A DNA stretch of 24,390 nucleotides from a virus: positions 1-24,390 of the IMG/VR virus record IMGVR_UViG_3300027152_000017; one strand, written 5' to 3'. The notes beneath the pieces are model-generated. The model was not told the DNA's origin. It did not search any database and worked only from the letters and a program-made list of their open reading frames with translations. Positions 1 to 24,390 of the stretch are shown here, in pieces (the stretch's first letter is position 1; each line of letters starts with the position of its first letter). Both the position numbers and the translations under genes were made by a program.

Positions 1-37
1 AAATAATGTAGAATGTTATGAACAAAAGAGGATAAAA
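1..37. other. 5' edge, no assignable gene
   Basis: This is a short leader before the methylase. Two of the + strand frames meet stops here (TAA at 4-6, TAG at 9-11), either of which could end an upstream gene. The third frame is open into the methylase. It contains the AGAGG ribosome site at 27-31. I see nothing else. Confidence 0.5.
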
Positions 38-1153
38 ATGCAAGACTTAAAAATACAATACAAAAAAATTGAAGATTTAATTCCGTATGTAAATAACTCA
101 AGAACGCACTCGGAAGAACAGGTCACGCAAATTGCATCAAGCATTAAAGAATTTGGTTGGACTAACCCAATCTTGGTTGATGGCGAAAACGGAGTTATTG
201 CAGGTCATGGCAGAATTTTGGCAGGCAAAAAACTTGGTCATCAAGAAGTGCCAACGATTGAATTGTCAGGTTTAAGCGATGCACAGAAAAAAGCCTATGT
301 TATTGCTGATAACAAATTGGCGTTAAACGCAGGTTGGGATGCGGAAGTATTAAAAGTTGAATTTGAAGAATTACAAAATCTTGGATACGATTTAAGCCTT
401 ACAGGTTTTAGCGATAAAGAATTAAAAGAATTTACAACGGAAGTTGTTGAGGGTTTAACGGAAGAAGATGCCGTACCCGAATTGCCTGAAGAACCAAAAA
501 CAAAGGTTGGGGATATTTATATTCTTGGAAATCATAGGCTTATGTGTGGTGACAGCACAATGTTGCATGATGTTGAAAAGCTAATGAATGGCACAAAACC
601 TGATTTGATTCATACAGACCCACCATACGGCATGAACGCTGTAAGTAAATCATCCGTATTAAAAGCAAATTACGGCACAGACATATTGGGTGACGATAAC
701 CCTGATGTGGCTAAAGATGCGTTTAATTTAATTTATGGTTTATACCCTGATGCCAAACAAATATGGTGGGGTGCAAATTATTATTGTTCAGTATTGCCCG
801 ACAGCGAATGTTGGTTAGTGTGGGATAAAAACAATGGGCAATCAGACCAAACTGATTGTGAGTTAGCATGGGCTAACTTTAGAAGTGTTGTAAGACAATT
901 TACACAAGCATCAGAAAAAACAAACAGAGTTCACCCAACTCAAAAACCTGTTTCTTTGGTTGAATGGATTATTAAACGATTTAATGTATCTGCAAAAACA
1001 ATTGCTGATTTTTTTGGTGGTTCAGGTTCAACTCTAATATCTGCTGAAAAACACGGCATACAATCATTTACTATGGAGTTTGACCCTAAATTTTGTGATG
1101 TAATTGTTAAGCGTTGGGAAGATTACACGGGTAAAAAGGCTGAATTATTATGA
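38..1153 (+). CDS. ParB-like domain / beta-class DNA methyltransferase fusion
   Basis: A 371-residue protein expected to methylate adenine N6 or cytosine N4 in phage or host DNA. Residues about 5-100 look like a ParB/Srx-type nuclease-like fold (VIAGHGR around residues 53-59, where GxxR is usual). A linker follows, then the methylase: catalytic motif DPPY at 194-197 and the SAM-binding motif FFGGSGST at 325-332. Motif IV before motif I is the beta-class order. ATG 38 has a good ribosome site (AGAGG, 6 bases away). The frame is also open upstream to the window edge, so a longer N terminus cannot be excluded. The stop overlaps the next start (ATGA), placing it in the packaging operon. Such ParB-methylase fusions commonly sit beside terminase genes in phages. 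Its recognition site cannot be read from the sequence. Confidence 0.9.
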   Translation: MQDLKIQYKKIEDLIPYVNNSRTHSEEQVTQIASSIKEFGWTNPILVDGENGVIAGHGRILAGKKLGHQEVPTIELSGLSDAQKKAYVIADNKLALNAGWDAEVLKVEFEELQNLGYDLSLTGFSDKELKEFTTEVVEGLTEEDAVPELPEEPKTKVGDIYILGNHRLMCGDSTMLHDVEKLMNGTKPDLIHTDPPYGMNAVSKSSVLKANYGTDILGDDNPDVAKDAFNLIYGLYPDAKQIWWGANYYCSVLPDSECWLVWDKNNGQSDQTDCELAWANFRSVVRQFTQASEKTNRVHPTQKPVSLVEWIIKRFNVSAKTIADFFGGSGSTLISAEKHGIQSFTMEFDPKFCDVIVKRWEDYTGKKAELL

Positions 1154-1614
1154 ACAAATTGCCAATAGAATTGCACCTTATTAAAGGTACAAAGCCTGAA
1201 CACAATCCAATAGAAGTGCCTGTTGAAATAAAAAACAGAATTCCACAGGCGGAATGGATGGATAATCCAAACGATTGGGATAAGCAAAGGTTTATTAAAG
1301 AAACATCAGATTTTTTGTTTGATGTATATGGTATAGGTACAGACCAAGACAAACACACATTGGCGATGTTGGCAGACCAAATAGATTTATATATTGAATG
1401 TAACAAAGGTGTTAAAGCTAATGGCGTTGTTTCAAAATTTAATGGCGGTAAAACAATTGGCACAAATCCTTTTATTACCGTAAGAAATAGCACTTTAAAG
1501 TTAATTATTCAACTAATGAATGAATTAGGATTAACACCAAGGGGGCGTTTAGAAAAATCAAAGTTAAGCACCAACAATGTGGCTAACAGATTAATGAGGG
1601 GGGCTAAAGGATGA
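1150..1614 (+). CDS. terS: Phage terminase small subunit, P27 family
   Basis: A 154-residue protein that should recognise the packaging site and load the large terminase subunit. Family features seen by eye: an early LIKGTKP segment (P27 proteins usually open with a GNPG/KR-like stretch), a mixed helical middle (TLAMLADQIDLYIEC), and the C-terminal LGLTPRGRLEK helix start typical of P27 proteins, where LGLTPSxR is usual. Length matches the family. ATG 1150 overlaps the methylase stop (ATGA), implying translational coupling. Its own TGA overlaps the start of a 38-codon ORF. Arginine is coded mainly by AGA/AGG, as in the methylase, whereas the head and tail genes favour CGT. Confidence 0.85.
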   Translation: MNKLPIELHLIKGTKPEHNPIEVPVEIKNRIPQAEWMDNPNDWDKQRFIKETSDFLFDVYGIGTDQDKHTLAMLADQIDLYIECNKGVKANGVVSKFNGGKTIGTNPFITVRNSTLKLIIQLMNELGLTPRGRLEKSKLSTNNVANRLMRGAKG

Positions 1615-1727
1615 AATGGGAATTATTAGATAACCCTGAAGTTATTGCATTTGGCATTTCATACACAACTTCAAACAAACAGTTAATTTTTGTTTTTTAC
1701 AAATACGCATTGGTGATTGAATTTTGA
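1611..1727 (+). CDS. 38-residue coupled micro-ORF between terminase subunits
   Basis: A very short ORF that exactly fills the gap between the two terminase genes. It starts with ATGA overlapping the small-subunit stop and ends with TGATG, so its TGA (1725-1727) shares one base with the large-subunit ATG (1727). The product begins MKWELLDNPEV and has an aromatic/hydrophobic second half (LIFVFYKYALVIEF). I do not recognise it. The large-subunit start has no clear Shine-Dalgarno sequence, so translation through this ORF may deliver ribosomes to terL. It could therefore be a coupling leader, a small packaging accessory, or both. Confidence 0.55.
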   Translation: MKWELLDNPEVIAFGISYTTSNKQLIFVFYKYALVIEF

Positions 1728-3391
1728 TGGATTGGCAAGATGGTGTTTTATATGCCGTGCAGGTTGCCAAAGGTGATGTACAAGTTTGTAGAAATGTACG
1801 CCTTGCCTGCCAACGGTTTTTAAATCAAATTGAAAATAAAGAATGGGGTTACTATTTTGACCCTGATTACCCACAGCATTTTTTAGATTTTATTGGTGAG
1901 TTAAAACACACAAAAGGTAAAGATGCAGGGGCAAATGTTGTTTTGCAACCTTGGCAAATTTTCTTAATATGTGCCATTTACGGATTTAGGTCAAAAAAAG
2001 ACCATACCAAAAAATTGGTTACTGATGTTATTGTATTCATTCCACGCAAGGCAGGCAAGTCAACATTAACATCCGCAATTGGTTTGTACGAGTTGCAGTT
2101 TGGCGAAGCAGGGGCTGAAGTTTATACATTGGCAACAAACCGTGAACAGGCAACTATTGTGTTTGATTCTGCAAAAGGTTTTGTTGAAACAGCCCCACAA
2201 GATATTGCTGAATGGTTTAATTTAAGCAAATACGAAATAAAAAAATCAGGTGACACACAATCAATGTTTAAGGCGTTAAGCCGTGATACTAAAAAGACGG
2301 GTGACGGTAAAAACCCATCATGTGTGATTATTGACGAATCAGCCCAAATTATTGACCGCAACAGTATTGAAGTTTTACATTCAGGTATGGTTGCCCGTCA
2401 GAATCCATTGCGTATATACATTACAACTGCATCATTTACTAAAGACACCAAGTTTTATGAAGATATGCAAATGTTTGAAACTATGCTTAATGGCGAAGCA
2501 ACCGACCAACCAAATTGGTTTGGTTTGCTTTACAGCTTAGACCCGCATGACGATTGGCGTGAACCAAGTAATTGGGCAAAAGCTAACCCAATGCACGGCA
2601 TAACAGTATTTGAAGATGCAATTATGAAACGGGCTGAAGAAGCAAAACACAAGCCTGCAACGCTAAATGAATTCCTATGTAAAACCCTAAATATATTTGT
2701 TTCCGCAAATACAGCTTGGGTTGACCGTGATTTGTGGGATGCACCTGAATGTGTGATTAAAGAAGCCCGTGAACCTGAAGCGGTGTTTTTGGCGTTTGAC
2801 TTAGCAAGCACCCGTGACTTGAACGCAGTATGTACGCTAAAGCGATTTGCCGAAGATGATTATGAAGCCCATTGGAAATTCTTTTTACCTGAAGAAAGTT
2901 TGGAGTTGATTCCCAAGCATTACCAAGACATATTCCGTAATGCCATTAATTCAGGGGTATTAAAATTAACTATGGGTAATGTAATGGATGACAAAGAAAT
3001 CTATGACCACATTATTTCTGAACATCAAAAGTACGATTTAAAAGAAGTTGGGTATGATGCCTATAACGCAGGCAATTTAGTATCACGCCTTTATGAAGCA
3101 GGTTTGCCCGTCAAGAAAGTTGGGCAGGGCATGGCGGTATTAAGCAACCCAAGTAAGTATGTGGAAAAAATGATTCTGCAAAAAGCAATCAAACATGACG
3201 GCAACCCGTTTGTTGGTTGGCAATTAAGCAATTGCGAAGTGTACACAGATGTAAACGGAAACATTAAAATCCGTAAGAATGAAGCAGATAAATCAGCAAA
3301 AGTTGATGGTATTATTGCTATGATTACAGCGTTTCATTGTGCATTAGATAATCCGTATGTATCAAATAGTTTTGGTTTTAGGGCATTTTGA
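1727..3391 (+). CDS. terL: Phage terminase large subunit (ATPase/nuclease)
   Basis: A 554-residue packaging motor. The N-terminal ATPase has Walker A at 106-113 (PRKAGKST) and Walker B at about 199-204 (CVIIDE, D203/E204), with a DESAQ continuation. The C-terminal RNase H-like nuclease shows acidic candidates D358 (FDLAS), D444 (YDAYN) and D527 (KVDGI), in the expected spacing. Length and motif order fit the HK97/P27-partnered Terminase_1 group. The start is ATG 1727: an in-frame stop at 1718-1720 leaves only TTG 1724 as an alternative. No strong ribosome site precedes it, so coupling to the micro-ORF upstream is likely. It acts with TerS and the portal to fill proheads with DNA. Confidence 0.95.
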   Translation: MDWQDGVLYAVQVAKGDVQVCRNVRLACQRFLNQIENKEWGYYFDPDYPQHFLDFIGELKHTKGKDAGANVVLQPWQIFLICAIYGFRSKKDHTKKLVTDVIVFIPRKAGKSTLTSAIGLYELQFGEAGAEVYTLATNREQATIVFDSAKGFVETAPQDIAEWFNLSKYEIKKSGDTQSMFKALSRDTKKTGDGKNPSCVIIDESAQIIDRNSIEVLHSGMVARQNPLRIYITTASFTKDTKFYEDMQMFETMLNGEATDQPNWFGLLYSLDPHDDWREPSNWAKANPMHGITVFEDAIMKRAEEAKHKPATLNEFLCKTLNIFVSANTAWVDRDLWDAPECVIKEAREPEAVFLAFDLASTRDLNAVCTLKRFAEDDYEAHWKFFLPEESLELIPKHYQDIFRNAINSGVLKLTMGNVMDDKEIYDHIISEHQKYDLKEVGYDAYNAGNLVSRLYEAGLPVKKVGQGMAVLSNPSKYVEKMILQKAIKHDGNPFVGWQLSNCEVYTDVNGNIKIRKNEADKSAKVDGIIAMITAFHCALDNPYVSNSFGFRAF

Positions 3392-3420
3392 TATAGAATA
3401 AGGAAAACTTGGGGGAAAAC

Positions 3421-4824
3421 ATGGGTATTTTAGATATTTTCAGTAAGAAACAAAGCGTTAATAACGAATCTAATACCCTGTTTGGTCAGACCCAATTAGG
3501 TAACAATGTTGTTTATCAAGGTGACGGTGGCAGACAAACAGTAAGCCAACAGTTGCTTTATGTAACAACAAGTAGTGTTACATCCGCAGGGCGTACCGTT
3601 GATATGTCAACGCTATCACGCAATTCAACAGTTATGGCGTGTGTGGGAGTTAAAGCCCGTGCATTAGCACAGTTGCCAATCAAGGTTATGTACCAATTAG
3701 ATGATGGCACTTATGTTGATGCAATCAAATCTGACATTGTTGGTGCAAGAGATAAGGCAAAAGCAAAGCAGGCATTAAACCTGTTGACCAACCCTAACAA
3801 TTTTCAAAGCCAATACGAATTTTGGTATCAATGGTGTATGTGGCAAGATTTGGCAGGTGAAACATTTACCCTTTGGTGGCGTAAAGACCAAAAAGATGCC
3901 AACACAACACCGATTGAAATGTACAACCTTGATTCAACGCTGATTACAGTACAGTTGACACCAAGCCGTTATCCATCATACCGTTTGACAACACCATCAT
4001 ACGGTTTTAGCAAAGATGAACCGTTGGCAAATTACCAAGTTATGCACATTAAAGAAATGGCGTGGCAAGGTTCAGCAGGTTTTAACAAAGGTATCTTGGC
4101 AACTGAATTAGTTGCGTTAGACCAAGACATTGACCTGTATGCAAACTTTGTTATGCAGAATGGTGCAAAGCCAAGCGGTATTTTTAGCACAACCCAAGTA
4201 ATCCCTGATGCTAAATACAAAGAAGTTGCCCAACGCCTAAAAGAAACATGGAACGCTATGACAGGTGGCCGTACAACTGACCAATCTAAAGCAGGCCAAG
4301 GTATGTTGCTTGACCAAGGTATGAGTTATACCCCTGTTGATATGCTTACCCTGCAAGATGCCCAAACATCAGAGTTAAAGACACAAACCATGAAGCGTTT
4401 ATGCGGATTGTTTGGTGTGCCACCTGCAATGTTGGGTATTTCTGACCAAAAGTACAACAATACACAGACTATGCTTGATGAATTCTACAAATCAACCATG
4501 TCACCAATGATTAAAAACATTACGCAAAAGCTGAAACAGCATTTGTTTAAAGGTTACCCATCCCTACACATTCAGTTTGATACAACTGAATTCTTGGAAG
4601 GTTCACCGTTAGACCAAATGAATTTTGCCGTTGCAGGCGTGAACGCAGGCGTAATGACACCTAACGAAGCCCGTGAATTCTTAGGAATGGCACAGCTTGA
4701 AGGTGCAAACGAATTAGTATCAAAGTCACAATCTAGCCAACAAGGTGCTATACAAGGCACAAGCCCACAAGATACAGGCGGTGGTGGTGGCAATCAAACA
4801 CGCAAGATGAATATTGGTAAATAA
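3421..4824 (+). CDS. Portal protein, HK97 family
   Basis: A 467-residue protein forming the dodecameric DNA entry/exit ring at one capsid vertex. Recognisable stretches are SRNSTVMACVGVKARALAQL (about residues 64-83), the central VMHIKEM segment, the LFGVPPAMLGI motif around 335-345, and the following NNTQTMLDEFYKSTM helix before the long stem helix. The glycine-rich tail (GGGGG) near the C terminus is probably disordered. An upstream in-frame TTG at 3409 is less likely than ATG 3421, which follows GGGGGA at 4-5 bases. The TAA overlaps the next ORF start (TAATG). It follows the terminase gene in the usual order. Confidence 0.93.
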   Translation: MGILDIFSKKQSVNNESNTLFGQTQLGNNVVYQGDGGRQTVSQQLLYVTTSSVTSAGRTVDMSTLSRNSTVMACVGVKARALAQLPIKVMYQLDDGTYVDAIKSDIVGARDKAKAKQALNLLTNPNNFQSQYEFWYQWCMWQDLAGETFTLWWRKDQKDANTTPIEMYNLDSTLITVQLTPSRYPSYRLTTPSYGFSKDEPLANYQVMHIKEMAWQGSAGFNKGILATELVALDQDIDLYANFVMQNGAKPSGIFSTTQVIPDAKYKEVAQRLKETWNAMTGGRTTDQSKAGQGMLLDQGMSYTPVDMLTLQDAQTSELKTQTMKRLCGLFGVPPAMLGISDQKYNNTQTMLDEFYKSTMSPMIKNITQKLKQHLFKGYPSLHIQFDTTEFLEGSPLDQMNFAVAGVNAGVMTPNEAREFLGMAQLEGANELVSKSQSSQQGAIQGTSPQDTGGGGGNQTRKMNIGK

Positions 4825-5015
4825 TGTCATTTATAGATAAAATATTTAACATTATGGGTTCACAAATAAAGAAACCTAGTGGTAAACTACCAAAAAAGCG
4901 TTTTACGCCCCACAAGATAACAGACGATAATCAAGCCATTTCTATTGGGGTAATCAATGAAGAATCTGACATTAGTTTGCGAAGCACAAGTACAGTTGGG
5001 AAGAACAGCAGATGA
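4824..5015 (+). CDS. Small basic ORF overlapping the protease start
   Basis: A 63-residue lysine/arginine-rich ORF (MSFIDKIFNIMGSQIKK, then PKKRFTPHK) starting in a TAATG overlap with the portal stop. Its last 59 bases overlap the protease gene in another frame. I recognise no family. It fills the otherwise empty 4825-4956 gap, and the tight coupling argues for translation. The possibilities are a small head-assembly factor or a coupling ORF that carries ribosomes to the protease start. Lack of a recognised family keeps confidence moderate. Confidence 0.5.
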   Translation: MSFIDKIFNIMGSQIKKPSGKLPKKRFTPHKITDDNQAISIGVINEESDISLRSTSTVGKNSR

Positions 5016-5751: not shown

Positions 5752-5761
5752 GGAATTCAAA

Positions 5762-7090
5762 ATGAAAGAAGTTATTGAAAAACTAGATTCAATTGAAGCA
5801 CAACAAGTTGCTAAGATTGAAGAAGCTAAAGCAGAAGCATTTGCAAAAACTGATGCTGTTGAAGTATCTTTGACAGAAAAGCTAAACGCTATTGAAGCAA
5901 AACTATCAGAAGTAAACGCACCATCAATCATCAAGATTGAAAAGACAATTCGTGGTGATGTAAACAAGATGGTTCGTGAACAGTTGCGTGATTTTGCTAA
6001 GTCAGATTCTAAAGTTCAGAAAGAATTGAAAGTTTTTGCTGACGAATCACAGTACGAAGCGTACATGACTGAAGCATCAGCACTAACAGGCGGTGGTGCA
6101 GGTATCGGTGGTCGTACAGCGTATGACCCTGTATTCCATGCGTTGCGTTTGGCTAACCCTATGCGTGGTTTAAGCCGTGCCGTTGCAACTGATGGTGCTA
6201 CTTATCAATTCCGTGCAAAAGTTGGTAACGCAGGTGCATCATGGGGCTATGCAATCCAAAACAACGGTTCAGCAACAACAGTAAACACAAACATTTGGCA
6301 ATTAACTTTGCAAGACCTAAACTGTGCTTTCCCAATCCGTACAGCATCATTGGATGACATTGACGGTTTAGAAGCCAATGTGGTTGATGACATGATGGTT
6401 GAGTTCTCACAAGCTGAAGCATTGTCAATGATTCAAAACAATGACCAAACAGATTCACCTAATACATACGGTGGTACAAACGGTTTGCGTGGTTTAAATC
6501 AATACGGTGGTGCTAATAGCACATACACAGGCGGTACAGTAAGTGAATCTGCATTTGGTTCATCAGGTACAGGTTCTTCATCAGGTTTACATAGCGTTGC
6601 AACTTATGACCAAATTACTACAAACGGTTTTGGTTCAGCAAACAATGTTCAATACAAAGATGTGGTTAACTTTATTTACAGCTTGCCACAGCAATATTGG
6701 ACAGCAACAGCTAAGTTTATGGTTAGCCCGTTGATGTTACAAGCAATCCGTGGTTTGGTTGATGAACAAGGCAGACCAATCTATGTTGACGGTTTAGCCC
6801 GTACTGATGGTATTGTTGGCACATTGCTAGGCTTTGATGTTGTTGTTAACAAGTATTTGGAAAACCCAACATCCGCAGGCGGTTCAGCAGGTACAAACAG
6901 CCAATACCCAATGTACTTTGGTGATTGGTCACGCTGTCACGCAATCGTTGACCGTTTGAACATGGTTCTTCGCAGATATGACCAAACACAAGTTGGTTTC
7001 ATCACATTCTTTGGTGAAAAGCGTTTGGCAACATCAGTTGTTGACCCATTTGCATTAGTTCGTTACCGTTCTACTGCAACAGGTGCTTAA
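5762..7090 (+). CDS. Major capsid protein 1, HK97 fold, with delta domain
   Basis: A 442-residue shell protein. Residues 1 to about 100 are charged and heptad-like (IEKLDSIEAQQVAKIEEAKAE and similar), matching the coiled-coil delta domain that scaffolds HK97 proheads and is removed by the protease. The mature part probably begins near E104 (EASALTGGGAGIGG). Capsid signatures include NPMRGLSR, FPIRTASLDDI, the glycine-rich GLRGLNQYGG loop, LPQQYW and the C-terminal VGFITFFGEKR. A Gly/Ser-rich insertion around 245-275 may be a surface loop. It has a strong ribosome site (AAGGA) and is followed directly by an intrinsic terminator, which fits high expression. The next gene is a clear paralogue. 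Confidence 0.93.
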   Translation: MKEVIEKLDSIEAQQVAKIEEAKAEAFAKTDAVEVSLTEKLNAIEAKLSEVNAPSIIKIEKTIRGDVNKMVREQLRDFAKSDSKVQKELKVFADESQYEAYMTEASALTGGGAGIGGRTAYDPVFHALRLANPMRGLSRAVATDGATYQFRAKVGNAGASWGYAIQNNGSATTVNTNIWQLTLQDLNCAFPIRTASLDDIDGLEANVVDDMMVEFSQAEALSMIQNNDQTDSPNTYGGTNGLRGLNQYGGANSTYTGGTVSESAFGSSGTGSSSGLHSVATYDQITTNGFGSANNVQYKDVVNFIYSLPQQYWTATAKFMVSPLMLQAIRGLVDEQGRPIYVDGLARTDGIVGTLLGFDVVVNKYLENPTSAGGSAGTNSQYPMYFGDWSRCHAIVDRLNMVLRRYDQTQVGFITFFGEKRLATSVVDPFALVRYRSTATGA

Positions 7091-7092
7091 TT

Positions 7093-7123
7093 AAGGATGG
7101 GGGTGAAAGCCCCCACCTTTTTT
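7093..7123 (+). terminator. Intrinsic terminator between the two capsid genes
   Basis: AAGG-A-TGGGGG (7093-7103) pairs with CCCCCACCTT (7110-7119) around the loop TGAAAG, giving a 10-bp stem with one bulged A. It is followed by a run of six T at 7118-7123. It lies three bases after the first capsid stop and ends before the second capsid ribosome site. It should make the second gene depend on read-through or on an unseen promoter. Confidence 0.85.
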
Positions 7124-7145
7124 ACAACTTATTATGGAAATAAAC

Positions 7146-8189: not shown

Positions 8190-8203
8190 TTAAAGGTTAA
8201 ATC

Positions 8204-8869: not shown

Positions 8870-9213
8870 TGGGCATTGTTAGATACGAAAATACAACAAT
8901 TAATGAAGTAACCAACGGGGTTGATACTTTTGGCGAGTACACAACGACTATCACCCCTTTGTTTACATCACGGGCATTGGTAAATGATGTATCAAATGCC
9001 GTAAGAATTTCTGAAAGATACCGTGTGTATCAAGATTTGGTTAATTTGACATTTAACTATACGCCTAACATTAAGCGTATTGTTGATGACCAAGACCAAT
9101 ACAGCATTACATGGCGTGGCAATGATTGGCGTGTGACTGATGTGCGTGAAAGCAATGACCGCATGAAAATCACATTAATGTGTTACAGAAACGACCCTGA
9201 AACGACAGTATGA
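8869..9213 (+). CDS. Head-tail joining / head closure protein
   Basis: A 114-residue, mostly beta protein. The segment QYSITWRGNDWRVTDVRESNDRM resembles the conserved core of phage head-tail joining proteins (SPP1 gp16 / lambda FII-like), where a W-x-G-x-x-[WY]-x-V strand pair is followed by a basic strand and a cysteine-containing end (LMCYRN). The length is typical. It is coupled on both sides: TAATG with the connector and a four-base overlap (ATGA) with the tail terminator. The assignment relies on position as much as on sequence. Confidence 0.68.
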   Translation: MGIVRYENTTINEVTNGVDTFGEYTTTITPLFTSRALVNDVSNAVRISERYRVYQDLVNLTFNYTPNIKRIVDDQDQYSITWRGNDWRVTDVRESNDRMKITLMCYRNDPETTV

Positions 9214-9629: not shown

Positions 9630-9670
9630 CAAGACAGAATCTTTTAAATCTTTTTATAGGAATATTCAAA

Positions 9671-10195: not shown

Positions 10196-10204
10196 TTAAC
10201 TTAT

Positions 10205-10223: not shown

Positions 10224-10230
10224 ACACTAT

Positions 10231-15510: not shown

Positions 15511-18500
15511 TGCTTAAAAGAAATATTGCAATTGTTGGTATATTAGGCTTATTTTTTGTAACGCCTGTTTATGCCGTTGGCATGACTGTTGCAATGTATA
15601 TTACAGGGGCAACATTGGCAACCGCAGGTATGGGTACATTAGCATTGGCTTTTGCAATCAATATGGTTGCATCAGCAGTTATAAGCAAAGCATTTTTTAA
15701 CCCAAATCAACCGTCAGGCGGTTCAGCCCCACCCGATGTTGGTAACAGACAACAAATACCACCTGCAACGGATAACAAATTGCCTGTTGTGTACGGTGAA
15801 GCATGGGTTGGTGGTACGGTTATTGATTTAAGCATTAGCCAAAATAATCAAGAATTATATTATGTATTAGCCCTTGCTGAAGTTACAGGCAACGGTTCAG
15901 ACACAATTACATTTGGCGATGCCTATTGGGGCGGTAAAAAAGTAACATTTAGGGCTGATGGTTATACAGTTGCATCATTAACAGATGAATCATCAGGCGT
16001 TGTTGATACAACTGTTGATGGTAGGATGCAGTTTTTTTATTATCGCAATGGTTCATTTAATCCTACAAATTCAAGTCAATCTGCTATTAGCGTAATGCAG
16101 ACAGGTGGATTAGTTTATACATGGGATAGTAATAAACTAATGACTAATACGGCATTTGTGATTATTCATTTAACTTATTCACAAACGGCTAATATTCGTG
16201 GATTAGAACAAACAAGATTTCAATTAACAAATAGCCTAACAAACACAGGCGATGTTTTTTATGATTATTTAACTAATGAAGTATATGGCGGTGCTATACC
16301 CGTAAATCAAATTGATACAACAAGTTTGAACGCATTAACAACTTACAGCAATCAAAACTTTTCATACACTAATTCAAGCGGATTCCCCACAAATCAACCA
16401 AGGTTTAAGTTTAATGGCGTAATTGATACTAACCGTACAATCATGGACAATTTACAAGACATGGCAAGTTGTTGTGATTGTTTGCTTAAATACAATGAAA
16501 TTACTGCCAAATGGGGTGTTATTGTTCAAAAGCCAACATATACAGTTGCAATGAATTTGAATGACAGCAACATGGTTTCTGCAATTAGTATTAGCCCAAT
16601 TGATTTAGCAGGTTCATATAATATTGTTGAATGTAAATTCCCCGACAATTCAGTACAGGATACATTTAATACTGCAACATTTGATTTAGCTGAAGTTGCC
16701 CCAAGTTTATTATTTCCTAATGAACCCGTCAACAAAATTTCAATTAGTTTGCCATTGGTAAATAACGATGTTCAAGCACAATACATTGCAACACGAATAC
16801 TTAAATCAGCCCGTGAAGATTTGCAGTTACAAGTAAACATTAATTATGTAGGTATTCAACTTGAAGCAGGTGATATTGTTACAGTAACAAGCCCTAATTA
16901 TGGATGGACAGCAAAGCCATTTAGAGTTAATAAGATTGTTGAACAATTTAGTAGTGATGGTGCTGTAATTGCAAAGCTAACATTGTCAGAATTTAATTCT
17001 GCCGTTTATGATGATGTATCAATTACACAATTTCAACCTGCACCAAACACAGGTATTAGTGACCCAACATTTTTTGGAGTAGTGCCTGCACCCCTTGTAA
17101 CTGCACAATATCCTAATAACGCTAATCCCATATTCTTGGTTCAAGCAACAACATCAAGTTCAGGAATTACACAATACGCTGAAATTTGGTATTCCGCATT
17201 TAGTAACCCAACATCTGACCAACGAATATTTGCAGGCACAACAGAAATTCAATCAAGTGGTAATCCATATAGCATTAATACGGCTATGCCTGCTGTATCA
17301 CTTGCCAACATACCGTCAGGTAATTGGTATTTCTTTAGCCGTATGGTAAACAGCCTTGCATCATCATCGTTTAGCCCTGCAAGTGCAATTTTACAATGGC
17401 GACCAAGCACTTTTCAATTTACCGAAAGATATTTGGCAGTTGCTTATGCTGACAGTATTACAGGTTCAGGTTTTAGTTTAAGCCCAACAAATAAAGAATT
17501 TTACGGTTTAATTAATCAATCAGGCACAGGTGTTAGTTCAACAGCATCAGATTACACTTGGTATCCTGCCGAACCTGATTTTGGCACATCATTTTATTTG
17601 GCGTATGCAAACCGTTCTAACAGGAAGTTTAGTTTTGGTTCAGGCACAGCCGTTATTGCAGGTGGTAATGGTGCATTTGTACCAAGTAACGCATTGTTAT
17701 TTGACCCGTCAGTATGGTCAGCTTTAGCATTAGGGTTAAATATAATTGACCTTGATAAGCGTACAGGTCAGCTAACAGAAACAGGCACAACATCAGTTGG
17801 TGAAGCATCAGGCGAGTTGGCAATTACAAATAACCCTGATGGAAAAATTGTTGCGCAATTAAAGCCATTTTTAGACTTTGGCGGTAGCCCTACATTTACA
17901 AGCCCTGTTGCTAATTTAACTGTTGATATTTATGGTCGTGTTGTAGGATTTGAAGCACCTGACAGCTTTTATCTTACAAAACAATCATTTACTGCAACAT
18001 CAGGTCAAACTGCATTTAGCGTGACAAGGGCATCAGGCTATATTACGGGGCAATGTTTAGTATTTAGCAACGGCTGTTTGTTAGATACAACTGAATATAC
18101 TGATTCTTTATCTACCGTAACATTGTCAACGGGTGCTGTTGTAGGAACAACAATTACTGTTATTTCGTTTAAATCTTCAAATGCAACAACGGGTGTGTAT
18201 CCATCATTTACAAGAAACACAGTTGATTTGACTAATGCCAATAGTTATACCGCATCAGGATTTACATTAACAAGTGGTTATGAATTTATATTTATTAACG
18301 GAACAGTTCTTAACGAATTAGATTACGGTATAAATGACCAAACAATTTCAGATTTTCCAAGCAACATGACAGGTAAAATGACCATAATTCAATGGTCATC
18401 TGACAATTTAAATCAGCCTAACGGATTCCCAAACAATATTGTGGCATTTACAGTTGTTGGACAGACTGTATATAGTTATTCTTATAATGTAAATGCGTTT

Positions 18501-18641
18501 AATTTGTATAGTAATGGTGTGATATTATTACAGGGAACGGACTATACAACGGCATCGGGTACTTATGTATTGGCTAATACGCCTGATACAAATTCAACCG
18601 TAATGGTTCAACAAACTTTTGCTAGAACAGGGGCAGTCTAA
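15507..18641 (+). CDS. Lambda J-like tail tip / host specificity protein
   Basis: A 1044-residue central tip protein. Residues 1-23 resemble a signal peptide (MMLKRN, then a hydrophobic core ending PVYA), and a second hydrophobic stretch covers about 27-64. The J/hub signature LPVVYGEAWVGG lies at 92-103. Hub-like sequence continues to about 508 (DNLQDMASCCDCLLKYNE; ATRILKSAREDLQLQVN; LEAGDIVTVTSPNYGW). A fibronectin-like section follows (about 530-632), then a variable region. The C terminus has three short beta repeats built on a (F/S)NGxxL...(D/E)Y core. Start is ATG 15507 (overlapping the GNAT stop) or the adjacent ATG 15510. It likely closes the tube, contacts the cell surface and anchors the fibres encoded after it. 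Confidence 0.82.
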   Translation: MMLKRNIAIVGILGLFFVTPVYAVGMTVAMYITGATLATAGMGTLALAFAINMVASAVISKAFFNPNQPSGGSAPPDVGNRQQIPPATDNKLPVVYGEAWVGGTVIDLSISQNNQELYYVLALAEVTGNGSDTITFGDAYWGGKKVTFRADGYTVASLTDESSGVVDTTVDGRMQFFYYRNGSFNPTNSSQSAISVMQTGGLVYTWDSNKLMTNTAFVIIHLTYSQTANIRGLEQTRFQLTNSLTNTGDVFYDYLTNEVYGGAIPVNQIDTTSLNALTTYSNQNFSYTNSSGFPTNQPRFKFNGVIDTNRTIMDNLQDMASCCDCLLKYNEITAKWGVIVQKPTYTVAMNLNDSNMVSAISISPIDLAGSYNIVECKFPDNSVQDTFNTATFDLAEVAPSLLFPNEPVNKISISLPLVNNDVQAQYIATRILKSAREDLQLQVNINYVGIQLEAGDIVTVTSPNYGWTAKPFRVNKIVEQFSSDGAVIAKLTLSEFNSAVYDDVSITQFQPAPNTGISDPTFFGVVPAPLVTAQYPNNANPIFLVQATTSSSGITQYAEIWYSAFSNPTSDQRIFAGTTEIQSSGNPYSINTAMPAVSLANIPSGNWYFFSRMVNSLASSSFSPASAILQWRPSTFQFTERYLAVAYADSITGSGFSLSPTNKEFYGLINQSGTGVSSTASDYTWYPAEPDFGTSFYLAYANRSNRKFSFGSGTAVIAGGNGAFVPSNALLFDPSVWSALALGLNIIDLDKRTGQLTETGTTSVGEASGELAITNNPDGKIVAQLKPFLDFGGSPTFTSPVANLTVDIYGRVVGFEAPDSFYLTKQSFTATSGQTAFSVTRASGYITGQCLVFSNGCLLDTTEYTDSLSTVTLSTGAVVGTTITVISFKSSNATTGVYPSFTRNTVDLTNANSYTASGFTLTSGYEFIFINGTVLNELDYGINDQTISDFPSNMTGKMTIIQWSSDNLNQPNGFPNNIVAFTVVGQTVYSYSYNVNAFNLYSNGVILLQGTDYTTASGTYVLANTPDTNSTVMVQQTFARTGAV

Positions 18642-19291
18642 TGACACAAGCATTTAATTTAAGCCAATTGGCTAACAATCTAAACACATCAGGTCAGCTT
18701 GATGCAACAGATGGTTTAACGGGTGCTGTACCTGTTGCCAACGGTGGTACAGGATTAACCGCAGTTGGTACATCAGGTAATGTGCTTACATCAAATGGTA
18801 GCGTTTGGACTTCAACAGCTATTCCTACACCAACTATTGCAGACGGTTCTATTACTGACCCTAAGATTTCTGATGGGATTACAGCAGGTTCTACATACAT
18901 TGGAACTGGCATGACTCGGTTTGGTAGATACACAGGGGGAACAGCGTATGTTCTTTTTGCACAAGCATACATATTAAGAGGTGGAGTATTTAATTTTACA
19001 ATAACTGTAACTAATCAAAACGTTGGTAATGAAAATAGCAGTACCATAGGTGCTAGAATTTATAGAGATGGCGTTGCTATTTCTGCTGAGGCTACCGCTT
19101 CTCTTGCTTTAAACACAAGCACTACATTTACATTTACAAGTGTTTCTTTATCTCGGGGTGGATTTGTTCAACTTTATTGTAAAAACTCAGCAGGCGACGC
19201 CAATAGAGTAGGCGTTGAAAATTGGAACTATGGTATTGCCACGGCTTTAAGGATTAATCCATTTACACCTGTTGTTATTTATGAAGGATAA
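18641..19291 (+). CDS. Tail fibre / receptor-binding protein with divergent C-terminal half
   Basis: A 216-residue fibre-like protein. Residues 1-60 have a common fibre N terminus (FNLSQLANNLNTSGQL, then VPVANGGTGLTAVGTSGNVL and SNGSVW). The C-terminal part (about 75-216) reads as a compact beta jelly-roll or TNF-like head (FTITVTNQNVGNENSSTIGA, ATALRINPF). Codon use changes within the gene: the 5' third uses TCA, GCA and ACA, whereas 18890-19270 uses TCT, GCT, ACT, CTT, CGG and AGA much more, suggesting a domain swap. It starts with ATG overlapping the J-like stop (TAATG). The receptor is not predictable. Confidence 0.7.
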   Translation: MTQAFNLSQLANNLNTSGQLDATDGLTGAVPVANGGTGLTAVGTSGNVLTSNGSVWTSTAIPTPTIADGSITDPKISDGITAGSTYIGTGMTRFGRYTGGTAYVLFAQAYILRGGVFNFTITVTNQNVGNENSSTIGARIYRDGVAISAEATASLALNTSTTFTFTSVSLSRGGFVQLYCKNSAGDANRVGVENWNYGIATALRINPFTPVVIYEG

Positions 19292-19300
19292 GGAATAAAT

Positions 19301-19654
19301 ATGTTTACAGTATCTATTGATAATAATTTAACCATTGCTGATGTTTTTGACACGGATGTTTATATTGACCCAAGTGTAACGACATACCCAATTACAGAAA
19401 ATGAAAAGGATATGATTGAAGTATCAGGTCAAATGGCGTTGTGGCAATACAAAGACGGTCAAGTAGTTGAATCTGAATTTGCACCTCAAATTTACAAAAA
19501 TGAATACAACGCAAAACAAAAACAATTAAGATTGCAAGCCTATGAACAAGAATCAGACCCGATTTTTTTTAAATGGCAAAGGGGTGAAGCAACGGAACAG
19601 CAATGGTTAGATGCTGTTGCACAAGTATCGTTGCAATTCCCTTATCAAGAGTAG
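19301..19654 (+). CDS. Small fibre-associated protein, possible fibre assembly factor
   Basis: A 117-residue protein. The first half (MFTVSIDNNLTIADVFDTD) is beta-like. The second half is a charged helix KNEYNAKQKQLRLQAYEQESDP followed by IFFKWQRGEATEQQWLDAVA and ending in FPYQE. This second part matches a short C-terminal pattern (A-Y-x-x-E-[AS]-D-P-[LI]-x-F-K-[WY]-Q-R-G-E-A-T) that I know from many small proteins beside phage fibre genes, whose function is not established. The ribosome site AAGGAA precedes ATG. A strong promoter candidate begins inside its 3' end, so it closes the upstream transcription unit. Confidence 0.65.
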   Translation: MFTVSIDNNLTIADVFDTDVYIDPSVTTYPITENEKDMIEVSGQMALWQYKDGQVVESEFAPQIYKNEYNAKQKQLRLQAYEQESDPIFFKWQRGEATEQQWLDAVAQVSLQFPYQE

Positions 19655-19660
19655 TATAAT
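19631..19660 (+). promoter_or_regulatory. Sigma70-type promoter candidate for distal fibre genes
   Basis: The -35 box TTGCAA (19631-19636) and -10 box TATAAT (19655-19660) are separated by 18 bases. The -10 is a perfect consensus hexamer, the -35 matches TTGACA at five of six positions, and the -10 begins on the base after the upstream TAG stop. The predicted start near 19667 gives a leader of about 67 bases before ATG 19734. It is the best promoter I find in the window and lies in the longest intergenic gap. Confidence 0.72.
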
Positions 19661-19687
19661 ACTAAAAACAATATAAGACATGATGCG

Positions 19688-19709
19688 TACCCCGTGAGTG
19701 CATGGGGTA
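19688..19709 (+). promoter_or_regulatory. Leader RNA hairpin upstream of 19734 gene
   Basis: TACCCCGTG (19688-19696) pairs with CATGGGGTA (19701-19709) around a four-base AGTG loop. This makes nine pairs including one G-T. No T-run follows, so it is not an intrinsic terminator. It sits about 20 bases into the predicted transcript and about 15 bases before the AGGGG ribosome site at 19724-19728. It could stabilise the 5' end or control access to the start; it matches no riboswitch I can name. Confidence 0.6.
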
Positions 19710-19733
19710 GTTAACCGAGAATTAGGGGCTATC

Positions 19734-20225
19734 ATGGCAGTATTTAGTAAGAACACGCTGACACAGGTTAGCGGATTTGACAATCCAATTATTGCAGGTG
19801 AATTGGTATATGACCAACAAACCTATTGGAATCTTCAACTAACTGCCGAAGATGGTACAACGCCTGTTAATTTGACAGGGGCAACTATCAATGCCCAAAT
19901 TATCCGTAGAACATTAACTAATGTGCAAGATACCCGTTATGGCTTATCTTTTGACATTAGCAATTACACGCCTACACCAACAGCAATACCATTAACAATT
20001 ACAAACCGTGATGATGCAACAGGTTCGTTTACATTGTTAATTGATTCTGATGCTTGGGGATTAGTAACAACTGATGACCAAATGGCTATCAATTCAGTCA
20101 ATGGTGCAGGTTTTTCAGGGCGTATCAAAATTAGCTTTCCATCAACATCAGGCGGTCAGCCTGCTGAAGATAACATCATTTTCTTGCTTTTCTTAGTTCG
20201 TTCAGACGGCATTGTAAAAGTTTAA
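19734..20225 (+). CDS. Beta-rich fibre/baseplate protein (BppU-like N-terminal pattern)
   Basis: A 163-residue protein: VYDQQTYWNLQLTAEDGTTP then VNLTGATINAQIIRR, a DDATGSFTLLID strand and a C-terminal IIFLLFLVRSDGIVKV. The order (extended strand, D-G-x-P-V-x-L-T-G-A, then a turn with D-x-T-G-x-F) resembles the beta-sandwich modules that attach receptor-binding proteins to baseplates, such as BppU N-terminal domains. The family name is tentative. ATG 19734 has AGGGG six bases away; a GTG at 19698 in frame would start inside the leader hairpin and is rejected. It is the first gene after the promoter candidate. Confidence 0.6.
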   Translation: MAVFSKNTLTQVSGFDNPIIAGELVYDQQTYWNLQLTAEDGTTPVNLTGATINAQIIRRTLTNVQDTRYGLSFDISNYTPTPTAIPLTITNRDDATGSFTLLIDSDAWGLVTTDDQMAINSVNGAGFSGRIKISFPSTSGGQPAEDNIIFLLFLVRSDGIVKV

Positions 20226-20235
20226 GGGGGCAGAC

Positions 20236-20529
20236 ATGGCAAGGTTAAATGTCAATGCTGTACCTAGTAACACAACAGTTACAGTACAAGATGCAAACAA
20301 TATTACTGCCAATATACAAGGCGGTAATAATGTTAATGTCACAGTTACACCAACACCAAAACAGGTTATTCAAGTTAATCGTGGTGTAGCAGGCAAAGAT
20401 GGCGGTGACGAAATTGGTGGTTATCCTGTAAATATTACAAGTGCTAACCGATATGATGTTTTAATGTTTGGCGTAGGTGAATGGGTAAATACCCCACAAA
20501 CCGAAATAACTGATGGCGGTAATTTTTAA
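20236..20529 (+). CDS. Short fibre-linked protein with DGGNF end
   Basis: A 97-residue protein with repetitive beta start (RLNVNAVPSNTTVTVQDANN, then ITANIQGGNNVNVTVTP), a short collagen-like GVAGKDGG stretch, and a C-terminal YDVLMFGVGEWVNTPQTEIT ending DGGNF. The last part (V-L-x-[FY]-x-x-x-x-W-V-N-T) is a common end motif in aquatic phage fibre proteins. It is probably a linker or minor fibre subunit. The next fibre protein ends in the closely similar DGGTF. It has the ribosome site AAGGGGG and good spacing. Confidence 0.6.
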   Translation: MARLNVNAVPSNTTVTVQDANNITANIQGGNNVNVTVTPTPKQVIQVNRGVAGKDGGDEIGGYPVNITSANRYDVLMFGVGEWVNTPQTEITDGGNF

Positions 20530-20544
20530 TTAGGGGTATTAAAC

Positions 20545-21747
20545 ATGGCAAATACAATTCGCATTAAAAGACGGGCAAGTAGTGGTGGGGCAGGTGCACC
20601 AACTTCATTAGAAAACGCAGAATTAGCGTTTAATGAAGCAAGTAATATTTTGTACTATGGTACAGGTACGGGTGGTGCAGGCGGTACGGCAACTTCAGTT
20701 ATTGCAATTGGTGGTAACGGTGCTTTCGTTGACACATCAACCACACAAACAATTGGTGGGGTTAAAACATTTAGTTCAACAATTAGCGGTTCAATTGATG
20801 GTAACGCAAATACAGCAACAACACTTGCAACAGGCAGAACAATTGCCATTACAGGTGATTTAAGCTATACAAGCCCATCATTCAACGGTTCAACCAATGT
20901 GACAGCAACAGGTACATTAGCTAATAGCGGTGTAACAGCAGGCACATATACAAAAGTTACAGTTGATGCAAAAGGTCGTACAACAGTAGGTGCAACAGCA
21001 TCATTATCTGAATTGTCAGCCCCAACAGGTTCACTAAGCATCGGCAACCAACTATTAACCAATGTGGCAACACCTGTTAATGATACTGACGGTGCAAACA
21101 AAGCGTATGTTGATTCAGTTGCCCAAGGTTTAGACACCAAGGCATCATGCGTTGTTGCTACAACTGCAAACATTACATTGTCAGGCACACAAACAATTGA
21201 TGGCGTTGCTGTTATTGCAGGTGACCGTGTATTAGTAAAAAATCAAACATTAAGTCAAAACAACGGTATTTATGTTGTTTCAGCAAGTGCATGGGCAAGA
21301 AGTTCAGACATGAATTTATGGGCTGAATTCCCATCGGCTTACACATTCATTGAACAAGGTACTACACAATCTGATACAGGTTGGGTTTGTACGGTTAATG
21401 CAGGTGGCACATTAGGCACAACGCCTGTTACATGGACACAATTTAGCGGTGCAGGTACTTATGTTGCAGGTACAGGATTAACATTAACAGGTAATTCTTT
21501 TGCTATTACTAACACAGCCGTAACAGCAGGTTCATACGGTTCAGCAAGTAATACATTGAGTGCAACCGTAAATGCACAAGGTCAATTAACTGCATTGTCA
21601 GCACAAGCCATTGCAATTGCCAATACACAGGTTAGCGGTTTAGGCACAATGTCAACGCAAAACGCAAACAATGTGGCAATCACAGGGGGTTCAGTTACTA
21701 ACTTGACAACATTTGATGGCATTACAATTGACGGTGGTACATTTTAA
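20545..21747 (+). CDS. Tail fibre protein
   Basis: A 400-residue fibre. The N terminus MANTIRIKRRASSGGAG and SLENAELAFNEASNILYYG is a frequent phage fibre attachment start, present in shortened form in the next gene as well. The shaft is Thr/Ala/Gly/Ser-rich (GSIDGNANTATTLATGRTIA; SGVTAGTYTKVTVDAKGRTT). A globular module lies at about 190-305 (ANKAYVDSVAQGLDTKASCV ... GDRVLVKNQTLSQNNGIYVV ... WTQFSGAGTY), a pattern widespread in fibres. The C terminus ends FDGITIDGGTF. ATG 20545 follows TAGGGG. The high repetitiveness suggests a trimeric, elongated molecule. Confidence 0.8.
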   Translation: MANTIRIKRRASSGGAGAPTSLENAELAFNEASNILYYGTGTGGAGGTATSVIAIGGNGAFVDTSTTQTIGGVKTFSSTISGSIDGNANTATTLATGRTIAITGDLSYTSPSFNGSTNVTATGTLANSGVTAGTYTKVTVDAKGRTTVGATASLSELSAPTGSLSIGNQLLTNVATPVNDTDGANKAYVDSVAQGLDTKASCVVATTANITLSGTQTIDGVAVIAGDRVLVKNQTLSQNNGIYVVSASAWARSSDMNLWAEFPSAYTFIEQGTTQSDTGWVCTVNAGGTLGTTPVTWTQFSGAGTYVAGTGLTLTGNSFAITNTAVTAGSYGSASNTLSATVNAQGQLTALSAQAIAIANTQVSGLGTMSTQNANNVAITGGSVTNLTTFDGITIDGGTF

Positions 21748-21754
21748 TTAACCC

Positions 21755-21766
21755 TGCTATATAGCA
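21755..21766. repeat. 12-bp perfect palindrome before S74 fibre gene
   Basis: TGCTATATAGCA is perfectly self-complementary and lies in the 35-base gap between two fibre genes, just upstream of the ribosome site AAGGAA. As RNA it would be only a weak hairpin; as DNA it could be a small operator-like site. No function is assignable. Confidence 0.45.
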
Positions 21767-21782
21767 AAGAAGGAATAGCCCT

Positions 21783-23867
21783 ATGGCTAACAAAATTATT
21801 CTGAAAAAGACATCAACGGCATCAAAAGTGCCGTTGTCAACTGACCTAGAAGTTGGTGAAATTGCTGTAAATTTGGCTGACCAAAAACTGTATAGTAAAA
21901 ATGCAAGCGGTACAGTTATTTTGGTTGGTCAGGGCGTGGCAGGTTCAGGTGATGTGGTAGGCGGTTCATCATCCACGGATAATGCGTTAGCCCGTTATGA
22001 CGGTACGACAGGTAAGTTAATTCAAAATTCAACAGTTACCCTTGATGACAATGGTAATTTAGCCAATGTCAATTCTGTTGGTTTTGACACAACACCTACA
22101 ACGCCACCTACAACCGCAGGTTCAATGTATTGGGATAGTGGCAACCTAACCCCTACTGTTGTTTTAAATGCAAATACCGATTTGCAATTAGGTCAAGAAA
22201 ATATTGCTTTGGTTTATAACGGCACGGGTTCAACTATTACAGCAGGTTCAGTTGTTGCTGTATCAGGGGCACAAGGTCAAAGACCAAGCGTTTCTTTAGC
22301 TGATGCAGATAGTGAAGCATTATCAGCACCAACATTAGGTATTGCAACTGAAAGTATTGCCAACGGGGCAGAAGGATTTGTTACAACATTTGGTTTTGTT
22401 CGTGGAATAAATACAAGTGCATTTACAGCAGGTGCACCAATTTATTTATCACAAACAGCAGGTCAATTTACAGCAACAAGACCATCAGCACCTGCACATA
22501 CAGTTGCATTAGGTTGGGTAATTAAAGTAAACGCATCAAGTGGCGAAGTTTTTGTAAACATCAACAACGGTTGGGAATTAGACGAATTACATAATGTACT
22601 AATTACATCACCAACTTCAGGTAATACGCTAATTTATGATTCAGTTGCAGGTGTTTGGAAAAATGCAAACATTACAGGCGGTACAGGTTTATCTGTTACT
22701 AACGGTGCAGGTACTATTGCATTGGCTAACACAGGCGTTACATCAGTAAGCGGTACAGCACCAATTTCATCATCAGGCGGTGCGACACCTGCAATTAGTA
22801 TTAGCCAAGCAACAACATCAACAAACGGTTATCTATCATCAACCGATTGGAATACATTTAATAGCAAAGCAACATTACCAAGTCAAACAGGCAATGCGGG
22901 TAAAGTATTAGGCACAGACGGAACAAATACTTCTTGGGTTGAAGGCGGTGGCGGTGGTAGCGCATTTTTTACTAGATACAATTTTACCGCTACTGCAAGC
23001 CAAACAACATTTGCTGTTGGCGTAACGCTTACACTTATTGAGGTTTACAACAACGGTGCAAGACTAATACCAACAACTGATTATTCAATTAGCGGTACAA
23101 ATGTGGTTTTGGCATCAGGGGCAAGCGTTGGTTCAATTATCACCGTTTTGGTATATACAACATTTGATGTTGCTAACACATACACACAATCACAAACAGA
23201 TAGTTTACTTGCTAATAAAGCAAATACCAATGGTTCTAATGCAACAGGTACATGGGGTATTTCAATTAGCGGTAATTCTGCGACATCATCAAATACATCA
23301 TCAATATCTAGTGCAGTAGGTAATGGCTACACATGGACAGGTGTACAGCAATTTCAAAGCAATTTAGGCACAACATCAGGAAGTTTAAGTAATCCATCTT
23401 TGCAAGCATACGCAACGGGTACAAATTCAGCGTTCATGTCATTTCATAGAAGTGGCAGTTATGCAATAAATATGGGTTTAGATTCTGATAATGTGTTAAG
23501 AATTGGTGGTTGGTCAGCAAGTGCTAACAGATTTCAAATGGATATGTCAGGTAATTTAACAATGGCGGGTAATGTCACCGCTTATTCTGATGAAACATTG
23601 AAAAAAGATTGGGATAATTTAACCGATAATTTTGTTACAAAATTAGCATCAGTTAAATATGGTACATACACAAGAATTGATACAAATGAAAGACAGGTTG
23701 GTGTATCAGCGCAATCATTAAAAAATGTTTTGCCTGAATCTGTCAATACTGATAAAGACGGAATATTGTCAGTTGCATACGGTAATGCTTCACTTGTTTC
23801 TTGTATTGAATTGGCAAAAGAAATTCAATTGCTTAAAAAAGAAATTGCACTTTTAAAGGCTAAGTAA
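21783..23867 (+). CDS. Tail fibre with C-terminal S74 self-cleaving chaperone
   Basis: A 694-residue fibre. The N terminus (KIILKKTSTASKVPLSTDLE then VGEIAVNLADQKLYSKNASG) is an attachment-like start. The shaft has fibre modules (ALVYNGTGSTITAGSVVAVS; ALGWVIKVNASSGEVFVNIN) and a beta module FTATASQTTFAVG/VYNNGARLIPTTDYSIS near 403-445 that resembles the J-like C-terminal repeats. The last 93 residues form an intramolecular chaperone: SDETLKK places Ser602 and Lys607 in the catalytic S-x4-K spacing of S74 endosialidase-type domains, followed by QVGVSAQSLKNVLPE and a terminal helix. The family cleaves itself before the serine after trimer folding, so the mature fibre would be about 601 residues. 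ATG 21783 follows AAGGAA. Confidence 0.88.
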   Translation: MANKIILKKTSTASKVPLSTDLEVGEIAVNLADQKLYSKNASGTVILVGQGVAGSGDVVGGSSSTDNALARYDGTTGKLIQNSTVTLDDNGNLANVNSVGFDTTPTTPPTTAGSMYWDSGNLTPTVVLNANTDLQLGQENIALVYNGTGSTITAGSVVAVSGAQGQRPSVSLADADSEALSAPTLGIATESIANGAEGFVTTFGFVRGINTSAFTAGAPIYLSQTAGQFTATRPSAPAHTVALGWVIKVNASSGEVFVNINNGWELDELHNVLITSPTSGNTLIYDSVAGVWKNANITGGTGLSVTNGAGTIALANTGVTSVSGTAPISSSGGATPAISISQATTSTNGYLSSTDWNTFNSKATLPSQTGNAGKVLGTDGTNTSWVEGGGGGSAFFTRYNFTATASQTTFAVGVTLTLIEVYNNGARLIPTTDYSISGTNVVLASGASVGSIITVLVYTTFDVANTYTQSQTDSLLANKANTNGSNATGTWGISISGNSATSSNTSSISSAVGNGYTWTGVQQFQSNLGTTSGSLSNPSLQAYATGTNSAFMSFHRSGSYAINMGLDSDNVLRIGGWSASANRFQMDMSGNLTMAGNVTAYSDETLKKDWDNLTDNFVTKLASVKYGTYTRIDTNERQVGVSAQSLKNVLPESVNTDKDGILSVAYGNASLVSCIELAKEIQLLKKEIALLKAK

Positions 23868-24390
23868 TGCCATTACCAACATCAGGTACGCTAACATTAG
23901 CACAAATTCAAACTGAATTTGGCGGTGCAGACCCTATTAGTTTAAGTGAATATTATGCGGGTGGTGCAAATGTACCCGCAGGTACTTCAGGCACAAACGG
24001 GGCTGTACCATCATCAGGTACTATTAGTATCAGCAATTTCTATGGTACTGCAAAAGTAACCACATTTACTGCAACTATTTCATCAAACCAAGACCGTTTA
24101 AATTTGCGTTCTTGGGCGTTGGCAAACGGATGGAATGGCACAAGCCAAGCAATTATTACTTTGGCATCAGGCGTTTGGATTTATTCAGCGACTACTGCAA
24201 CACCCGCATTAACTATTGATGGTTCATGGGCGGGTGGTATAACATTTATTAACAATGGTTATGTTATTGGCATGGGTGGTGGTGGCGGTCAAGGTGGCGG
24301 TGGTACTTCAACATTATCCGCAGGCGGTGGCGGTGGAACAGCTTTATCTGTTAGCACCAATGTAACTATTCAAAACAATGCTTATATTGG
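23867..24390 (+). CDS. Glycine-rich receptor-binding / adhesin protein, cut by window end
   Basis: The first 174 codons of an ORF that stays open to the window end. It starts in a TAATG overlap with the S74 fibre gene. The N terminus is a common phage adhesin opening: PLPTSGTLTLAQIQTEFGG, then PISLSEYYAGGANVP and SSGTISISNFYGT. A beta domain follows (NLRSWALANGWNGTSQAIIT, SGVWIYSATTATPALTIDGS). The last part becomes glycine-rich (IGMGGGGGQGGGG, then SAGGGGGTA), as in gp38-like and other phage adhesins where polyglycine loops carry receptor-contacting residues. The end of the protein is not seen. Function as the distal receptor-binding protein is inferred. Confidence 0.8.
   Translation, partial: MPLPTSGTLTLAQIQTEFGGADPISLSEYYAGGANVPAGTSGTNGAVPSSGTISISNFYGTAKVTTFTATISSNQDRLNLRSWALANGWNGTSQAIITLASGVWIYSATTATPALTIDGSWAGGITFINNGYVIGMGGGGGQGGGGTSTLSAGGGGGTALSVSTNVTIQNNAYI

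Follow-up and report, generated by a model that had tools for sequence, protein, structure and literature searches.

Absence of GATC and of many other short, mostly palindromic words from a lineage of P19250A-like siphophages

The tetranucleotide GATC is completely absent from the stretch of viral DNA analysed here (24,390 nucleotides, positions 1 to 24,390 of IMG/VR record IMGVR_UViG_3300027152_000017; hereafter the window), which is part of a freshwater-type bacterial virus genome and holds the structural and packaging half of a P19250A-like siphophage. The clade to which the window belongs has lost nearly every copy of some 15 short words of four to six bases and of roughly 15 to 20 longer ones, at the level of DNA and irrespective of the protein encoded; these words are mostly palindromic, many coincide with recognition sequences of known Type II enzymes, and the set varies between sister clades. 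The missing GATC is very probably one facet of a cumulative escape by which the lineage, facing a changing host population, evaded many Type II restriction-modification (R-M) systems.

Loss of GATC and of other words

An exact count of GATC in the window (positions 1-24390) gave 0, where base composition predicts 84.5 and a maximal-order Markov model 56.9, bearing out a preliminary description in which the word had appeared to be wholly absent. When synonymous codons were shuffled with the encoded proteins and codon usage held fixed, 50.3 +/- 4.7 copies were obtained, with a minimum of 39 in 400 shuffles. The codon choices are sharper than that description, which had pointed to aspartate codons as a sign of avoidance, supposed: Asp followed by a codon starting with C is encoded by GAC in 61 of 61 cases (elsewhere in 81 of 357), and Ile after a codon ending in G is never encoded by ATC (0/46; elsewhere 47/432). 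GATC is likewise at zero in nine contigs of the clade, 135 kb in total with some overlap, which include a 35.9-kb sister genome. It had also been allowed that a host equally poor in GATC would point to a compositional cause. If the host belongs to the Methylophilaceae, the candidate host family, that reading does not apply, because GATC is roughly normal in the seven genomes of this family that were counted (six near expectation, one at 39/71).

ACGT, CCAG/CTGG, GAGC/GCTC, GGCC, GCGC and others are depleted in the window as strongly as GATC. ACGT and CCAG/CTGG occur once each, GGCC twice and GCGC three times; no copy was found of GAGC/GCTC, CCGG, CGCG, TCGA, GCNGC, CCNGG, GGNCC, GGNNCC or CGNNCG. 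The near-complete sister (G002, 35.9 kb) contains no GATC, ACGT, CCGG, GGCC, GCGC, CGCG, TCGA, CCNGG, GGNCC, GCNGC, GGNNCC, CGNCG, CGNNCG, CCAG or GAGC, and of the words listed for the window a second sister of 29.7 kb (G001) retains one CCAG and one GGNCC. A survey of 84 relatives, which covered every four-base palindrome (16), 120 four-base words that are not palindromes and 32 interrupted palindromes, returned an erased set made up almost entirely of palindromes (GGCC, GATC, AGCT, CCGG, GGNNCC, ACGT, CGCG, CCNGG, GGNCC, GCGC, GCNGC and TCGA).

Longer words emerged under a stricter null, in which synonymous codons were swapped with the known erased words held erased and the window was pooled with its two sisters: observed/expected counts were 0/46 for AAGCTT, 1/40 for ATGCAT, 1/40 for CATATG, 0/41 for GAATGC, 0/30 for GAAGAC and 0/32 for GAANNNNTTC. 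A greedy search with a free International Union of Pure and Applied Chemistry (IUPAC) alphabet under this null returned CASTG, CTRYAG, RCATGY, GTMKAC, CMGCKG and GCATTC, the single palindromes AAGCTT, CATATG, ATGCAT, GCTAGC, ACTAGT, GATATC, CCATGG and TCTAGA, and the asymmetric motifs GGASG and GTCYC. Several of these we take to be the recognition sequences of known enzymes: TspRI (CASTG), SfcI (CTRYAG), NspI (RCATGY), AccI (GTMKAC), MspA1I (CMGCKG), NheI (GCTAGC), SpeI (ACTAGT), EcoRV (GATATC), NcoI (CCATGG) and XbaI (TCTAGA). AAGCTT, CATATG and ATGCAT are likewise sites of known restriction enzymes. That a blind search recovers degenerate specificities of known enzymes lends strong support to restriction as the cause. 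Other words were kept, namely GAATTC (19/7), CAATTG (39/32), GTTAAC (15/14), TTGCAA (53/46), GTAC (155/106) and AATT (446/431), and sites for EcoRI, MfeI, HpaI and RsaI stand at or above expectation. The pattern is that of restriction-site avoidance: recognition words lie far under expectation with codon usage and protein sequence fixed, and the avoided words are mostly Type II-like palindromes whose set varies by lineage.

Dipeptides missing from the proteins

The erasure extends to amino acids. Ala-Ala is missing because its coding as GCN GCN always contains GCNGC, and Gly-Pro and Pro-Gly are missing because their coding always contains GGNCC and CCNGG, respectively. In the 27 genes of the window the observed/expected numbers are 0/59 for Ala-Ala, 0/24 for Gly-Pro and 0/24 for Pro-Gly; with the two sisters pooled they become 0/190 for Ala-Ala, 0/84 for Pro-Gly and 1/84 for Gly-Pro. 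Relatives outside the clade have near-normal Ala-Ala, with 62 to 78 per near-complete genome, yet none of their aligned Ala-Ala sites (28-44 per relative) is kept in the clade, where Ser-Ala and Ala-Ser are the commonest substitutes. About half of the relatives' Ala-Gly or Ala-Thr sites are kept. Selection has therefore acted on DNA words and overridden protein sequence. A search of an open-access library found no paper on the loss of dipeptides through restriction avoidance, which does not prove that there is none.

Comparison with other phages

Restriction-site avoidance as such is already known. Rusinov et al. 2018 (PMC6286503) found Type II sites to be under-represented or eliminated in DNA phages, with GATC under-represented in all 46 phages whose hosts encode a matching restriction endonuclease, full elimination in 7.5% of phage-site pairs, and GCNGC under expectation in only 22.5% of genomes. 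In contrast to those phages, dozens of sites including GCNGC stand at zero together here, and dipeptides have been removed; what we would call new, within a known kind of avoidance, is this breadth, the ban on dipeptides, and the presence among the erased words of CCAG and GAGC, both asymmetric and four bases long.

Scored in one simple way, the window's clade has 13 of 48 short palindromes erased and Helicobacter phage KHP30 none of 48. T7 (V01146) resembles the clade in being short of GATC (6 against 153 expected), but only 1/48 palindromes is erased in it; similarly, Anabaena phage A-4L (KF356198) has 0 GATC, 0 GGCC and 0 GGNCC, but only 3/48 palindromes erased. In the latter (L127, positions 1-41000) GATT/AATC is also at 0 on both strands, with GATA at 238 and GATG at 249; that is, GATY is erased.

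Among named phages, Methylophilaceae phage P19250A (KX815270) alone matches the window at the DNA level; it is also the only cultured relative. The two share gene order and 20 proteins at 59% identity, and P19250A is likewise without ACGT and GGCC (0/67 expected). Unlike the window, however, P19250A has normal GATC (111/102), normal CCAG, GAGC and GCNGC, and near-normal Ala-Ala (62/75). In P19250A (L082) CTNAG is nearly gone (3/124 expected) and GTAC is depleted (10/72).

Gene content and history of erasure

The window has a G+C content of 38.6% and skewed codon use. PHROG matches identify the terminase large subunit, portal, head protease, major capsid protein, tape measure, tail tip J protein and tail fibres; the gene order is that of the P19250A-like siphophages, with homologous terminase, portal, capsid, tape measure and J proteins, and a search of IMG/VR with TerL returned at least 80 relatives. 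The features to which we refer are as follows.

1..24390 (no strand): the window, structural and packaging half of a P19250A-like siphophage; 0 GATC; of 48 short palindromes that could be tested, 11 are erased in the window taken by itself
38..1153 (+): fusion of a ParB-like domain and a DPPY-type N6-adenine DNA methyltransferase (phrog_498, E 8e-110; PF01555, PF02195)
1724..3391 (+): terL, from which the family tree for mapping word erasure was built (PHROG)
4267..4297 (+): the only two GGCC sites in the window (56 expected), both in the portal gene and separated by 27 bp
5762..7090 (+): major capsid protein gene (PHROG), without Ala-Ala, Gly-Pro and Pro-Gly, as are all 27 genes
17853..23712 (+): three residual GCGC sites (word positions 17853, 22960 and 23709 in the window)
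18703..19658 (+): segment for which neither sister genome has homologous DNA, holding the window's only CTGG, ACGT and CGNCG/GACGC

Mapping on a tree of TerL with 63 rows showed erasure states that are near all-or-none and clade-specific. GATC and GGCC require 8 changes each, CCGG 10, ACGT 5 and AGCT 2; TCGA, CCAG, GAGC and GCNGC were each lost once, in the window's clade, and sister clades are without other sets of words (AGCT, GTAC and CTNAG). The residual sites of the window are themselves unevenly placed: CTGG (18906), ACGT (19020) and CGNCG/GACGC (19195) all lie in the stretch at 18703..19658, a clustering with a chance of about 6e-5. This stretch, without DNA counterpart in the sisters, fits what a recently imported segment with incomplete cleaning would look like; for the gene at 18641-19291, no source was matched in the phage collection. 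One member of the clade (L008) has GCGC at a normal level (14/12) and four CCAG/CTGG sites, its other words being erased or nearly so, which possibly reflects relaxation after loss of one pressure.

The ParB-methyltransferase gene lies upstream of the gene adjoining terL. A copy 84% identical to it is present in L022, which sits in a different terL clade that keeps GATC, and the sequences make horizontal exchange the probable origin of this distribution. A PDB sequence search with the protein found no relative. It is a candidate second layer of anti-restriction, which may protect words that were not erased. The window is not that of a phage guarded by its own methylation and keeping its words, for the words are absent from it instead. 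In the sister phage G002 a gene of the tryptophan-halogenase family (L084:5802-7379, minus strand; PF04820, E 3e-108) stands on the opposite strand.

Candidate host and its restriction systems

A methylotroph of the family Methylophilaceae is the probable host, as P19250A is recorded from that family and the G+C content is similar. Transfer RNA genes offered no further clue to the host, none being found in the phages tested. A set of 187 genomes was reached through a hexulose-phosphate synthase marker; many of them measure 0.9-1.4 Mb, as fits the Methylophilaceae, and membership of that family is presumed.

Genes for GATC-type, DpnI, NgoPII-type (GGCC) and Bpu10I-family systems exist in this presumed host family. 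Methyltransferases forming 5-methylcytosine (m5C) occur patchily, in 62 of the 187 genomes, and next to some of them Pfam identified an NgoPII-type (GGCC) enzyme and Bpu10I-family enzymes; the recognition site of Bpu10I contains CTNAG. NCBIfam, applied to the candidate partners of the host methyltransferases, gave no restriction-enzyme names. In two genomes a Dam-family methyltransferase adjoins a DUF6997 protein of 408-426 aa, and the one Dam-type methyltransferase compared with the PDB was closest to DpnM (E 4e-75). DUF6996/DUF6997/DUF7226 proteins stand beside Dam-type methyltransferases at L141:168-1448 and L142:216-1442. Annotated only as unknown domains, they are candidate GATC-specific restriction enzymes. 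A third genome (G520, 1.5 Mb, presumed to be a streamlined member of the Methylophilaceae) carries a complete DpnI gene with its C-terminal domain present (L112:2171-2944, minus strand), adjoining an ART-PolyVal protein; DpnI cuts methylated GATC. A search with PF04556 for the DpnII-family nuclease gave one weak fragment match, which on inspection proved to be the neighbourhood of the DpnI gene. A Candidatus Methylopumilus metagenome-assembled genome (MAG) from Lake Biwa methylates a motif containing AGCT (PMC6329791), a word that is erased in sister clades.

Discussion

Long exposure to restriction, as the preliminary description had proposed, is supported by the codon-preserving tests, by a set of words that is nearly all palindromic and by the lineage-specific erasure, although its attribution to GATC cutters alone was far too narrow. 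Genes of the two kinds that it named, MboI/DpnII-type and DpnI-type, do both occur in the Methylophilaceae; most of the erased words are of non-GATC specificity. Most probably the clade circulates among host strains that differ in their Type II R-M systems. Every such system would kill phage genomes that keep its site, so that site-free variants would win. The erased set would then be a record of the R-M systems met over time, and newly imported segments would enter with sites and be cleaned later. With regard to GATC, some host strains may have DpnII-type R-M and others a DpnI-type nuclease; as neither methylation state would protect a phage that faces both, only the loss of GATC would be safe.

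Several observations weigh against this account. Positions 1-20000 of the window had no spacer or prophage match in the 187 Methylophilaceae genomes, with one weak match to the ParB region only, and the few MAG contigs with a related terL belong to unrelated taxa and are probably mis-binned. None of the Methylophilaceae genomes examined has more than about five m5C methyltransferases; as no single genome approaches thirty systems, the erasure record would have to be cumulative or population-wide, built up across many strains or over a long history. The greedy search merges words somewhat arbitrarily, as in its first motif, WGMSKC, and the three genomes pooled for the dipeptides, the stricter null and that search are relatives, so that their counts are not independent. 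Finally, GAGC and CCAG are asymmetric four-base words, and we know of no enzyme for either.

The asymmetric words bear on a further possibility, compatible with escape from Type II systems, that part of the erasure, chiefly that of the asymmetric words, stems from other sequence-specific defences (Type III, Type IIG or bacteriophage exclusion (BREX)-like). CCAG, GAGC, GGASG and GTCYC are asymmetric, and CCAG and GAGC contain one adenine each, as N6-adenine systems need. Against this reading, both orientations are erased here, whereas a one-sided bias can suffice against Type III pressure. Rusinov et al. (PMC6286503) report that phages avoid mainly orthodox Type II sites. We regard such a contribution as possible but doubtful.

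It is very unlikely that phage-encoded nucleases of these specificities destroy host DNA and so oblige the phage to be without the sites. The sister G002 does encode HNH, YqaJ and VRR-NUC-like nucleases, but these are of the ordinary kinds that phages use in recombination and packaging, the nuclease-like proteins scanned included nothing Type II-like, and the explanation would require dozens of specificities. We attach still less weight to the idea that short palindromes as such are avoided, for reasons of structure or replication unrelated to restriction. The erased words are mostly palindromes, and six-base palindromes as a class stand at 0.5-0.6 of expectation; nevertheless GAATTC, CAATTG, GTTAAC, TTGCAA, GTAC and AATT are not avoided, the asymmetric words CCAG, GAGC, GAATGC and GAAGAC are, and the sets differ by clade. 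Erosion without selection, through deamination of 5-methylcytosine at host-methylated sites, is highly improbable even though CCGG, GGCC and GCGC are typical m5C sites: the losses are complete; CCGG would become CCAG/CTGG, a word that has been erased too; neither the absence of GATC nor the choice of Asp and Ile codons is explained; and the changes extend to amino acids. Finally, the window's base composition, its skewed codon use or a host-like word usage has practically no chance of accounting for the absence of GATC, for although the related words CTC and CGA are rare too, codon shuffles retain 50 +/- 5 copies (minimum 39), the candidate host family and sister clades of equal G+C content have roughly normal and normal GATC, respectively, and amino acids have been altered to escape GCNGC.

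Restriction avoidance is commonly regarded as slight, a bias in codon choice that touches one or two sites; in this clade it is near-total for dozens. We consider it likely that the clade is a restriction-transparent lineage, in which about thirty specificities (a figure that varies with thresholds and with the merging of degenerate motifs) have been erased together, host restriction dictates protein sequence, and the erased set predicts R-M specificities of the hosts that are not yet known, for example the asymmetric CCAG and GAGC. The three dipeptides, gone because all of their possible codon pairs contain a restriction site, provide a clean and quantitative case of host immunity shaping protein evolution. 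The lineage is also a test case for how many R-M systems a phage lineage escapes by deletion alone, the import and subsequent cleaning of new genes (18.7-19.7 kb) may serve as a clock, and virus sequence offers a route to inferring unknown host enzymes such as those for CCAG and GAGC.

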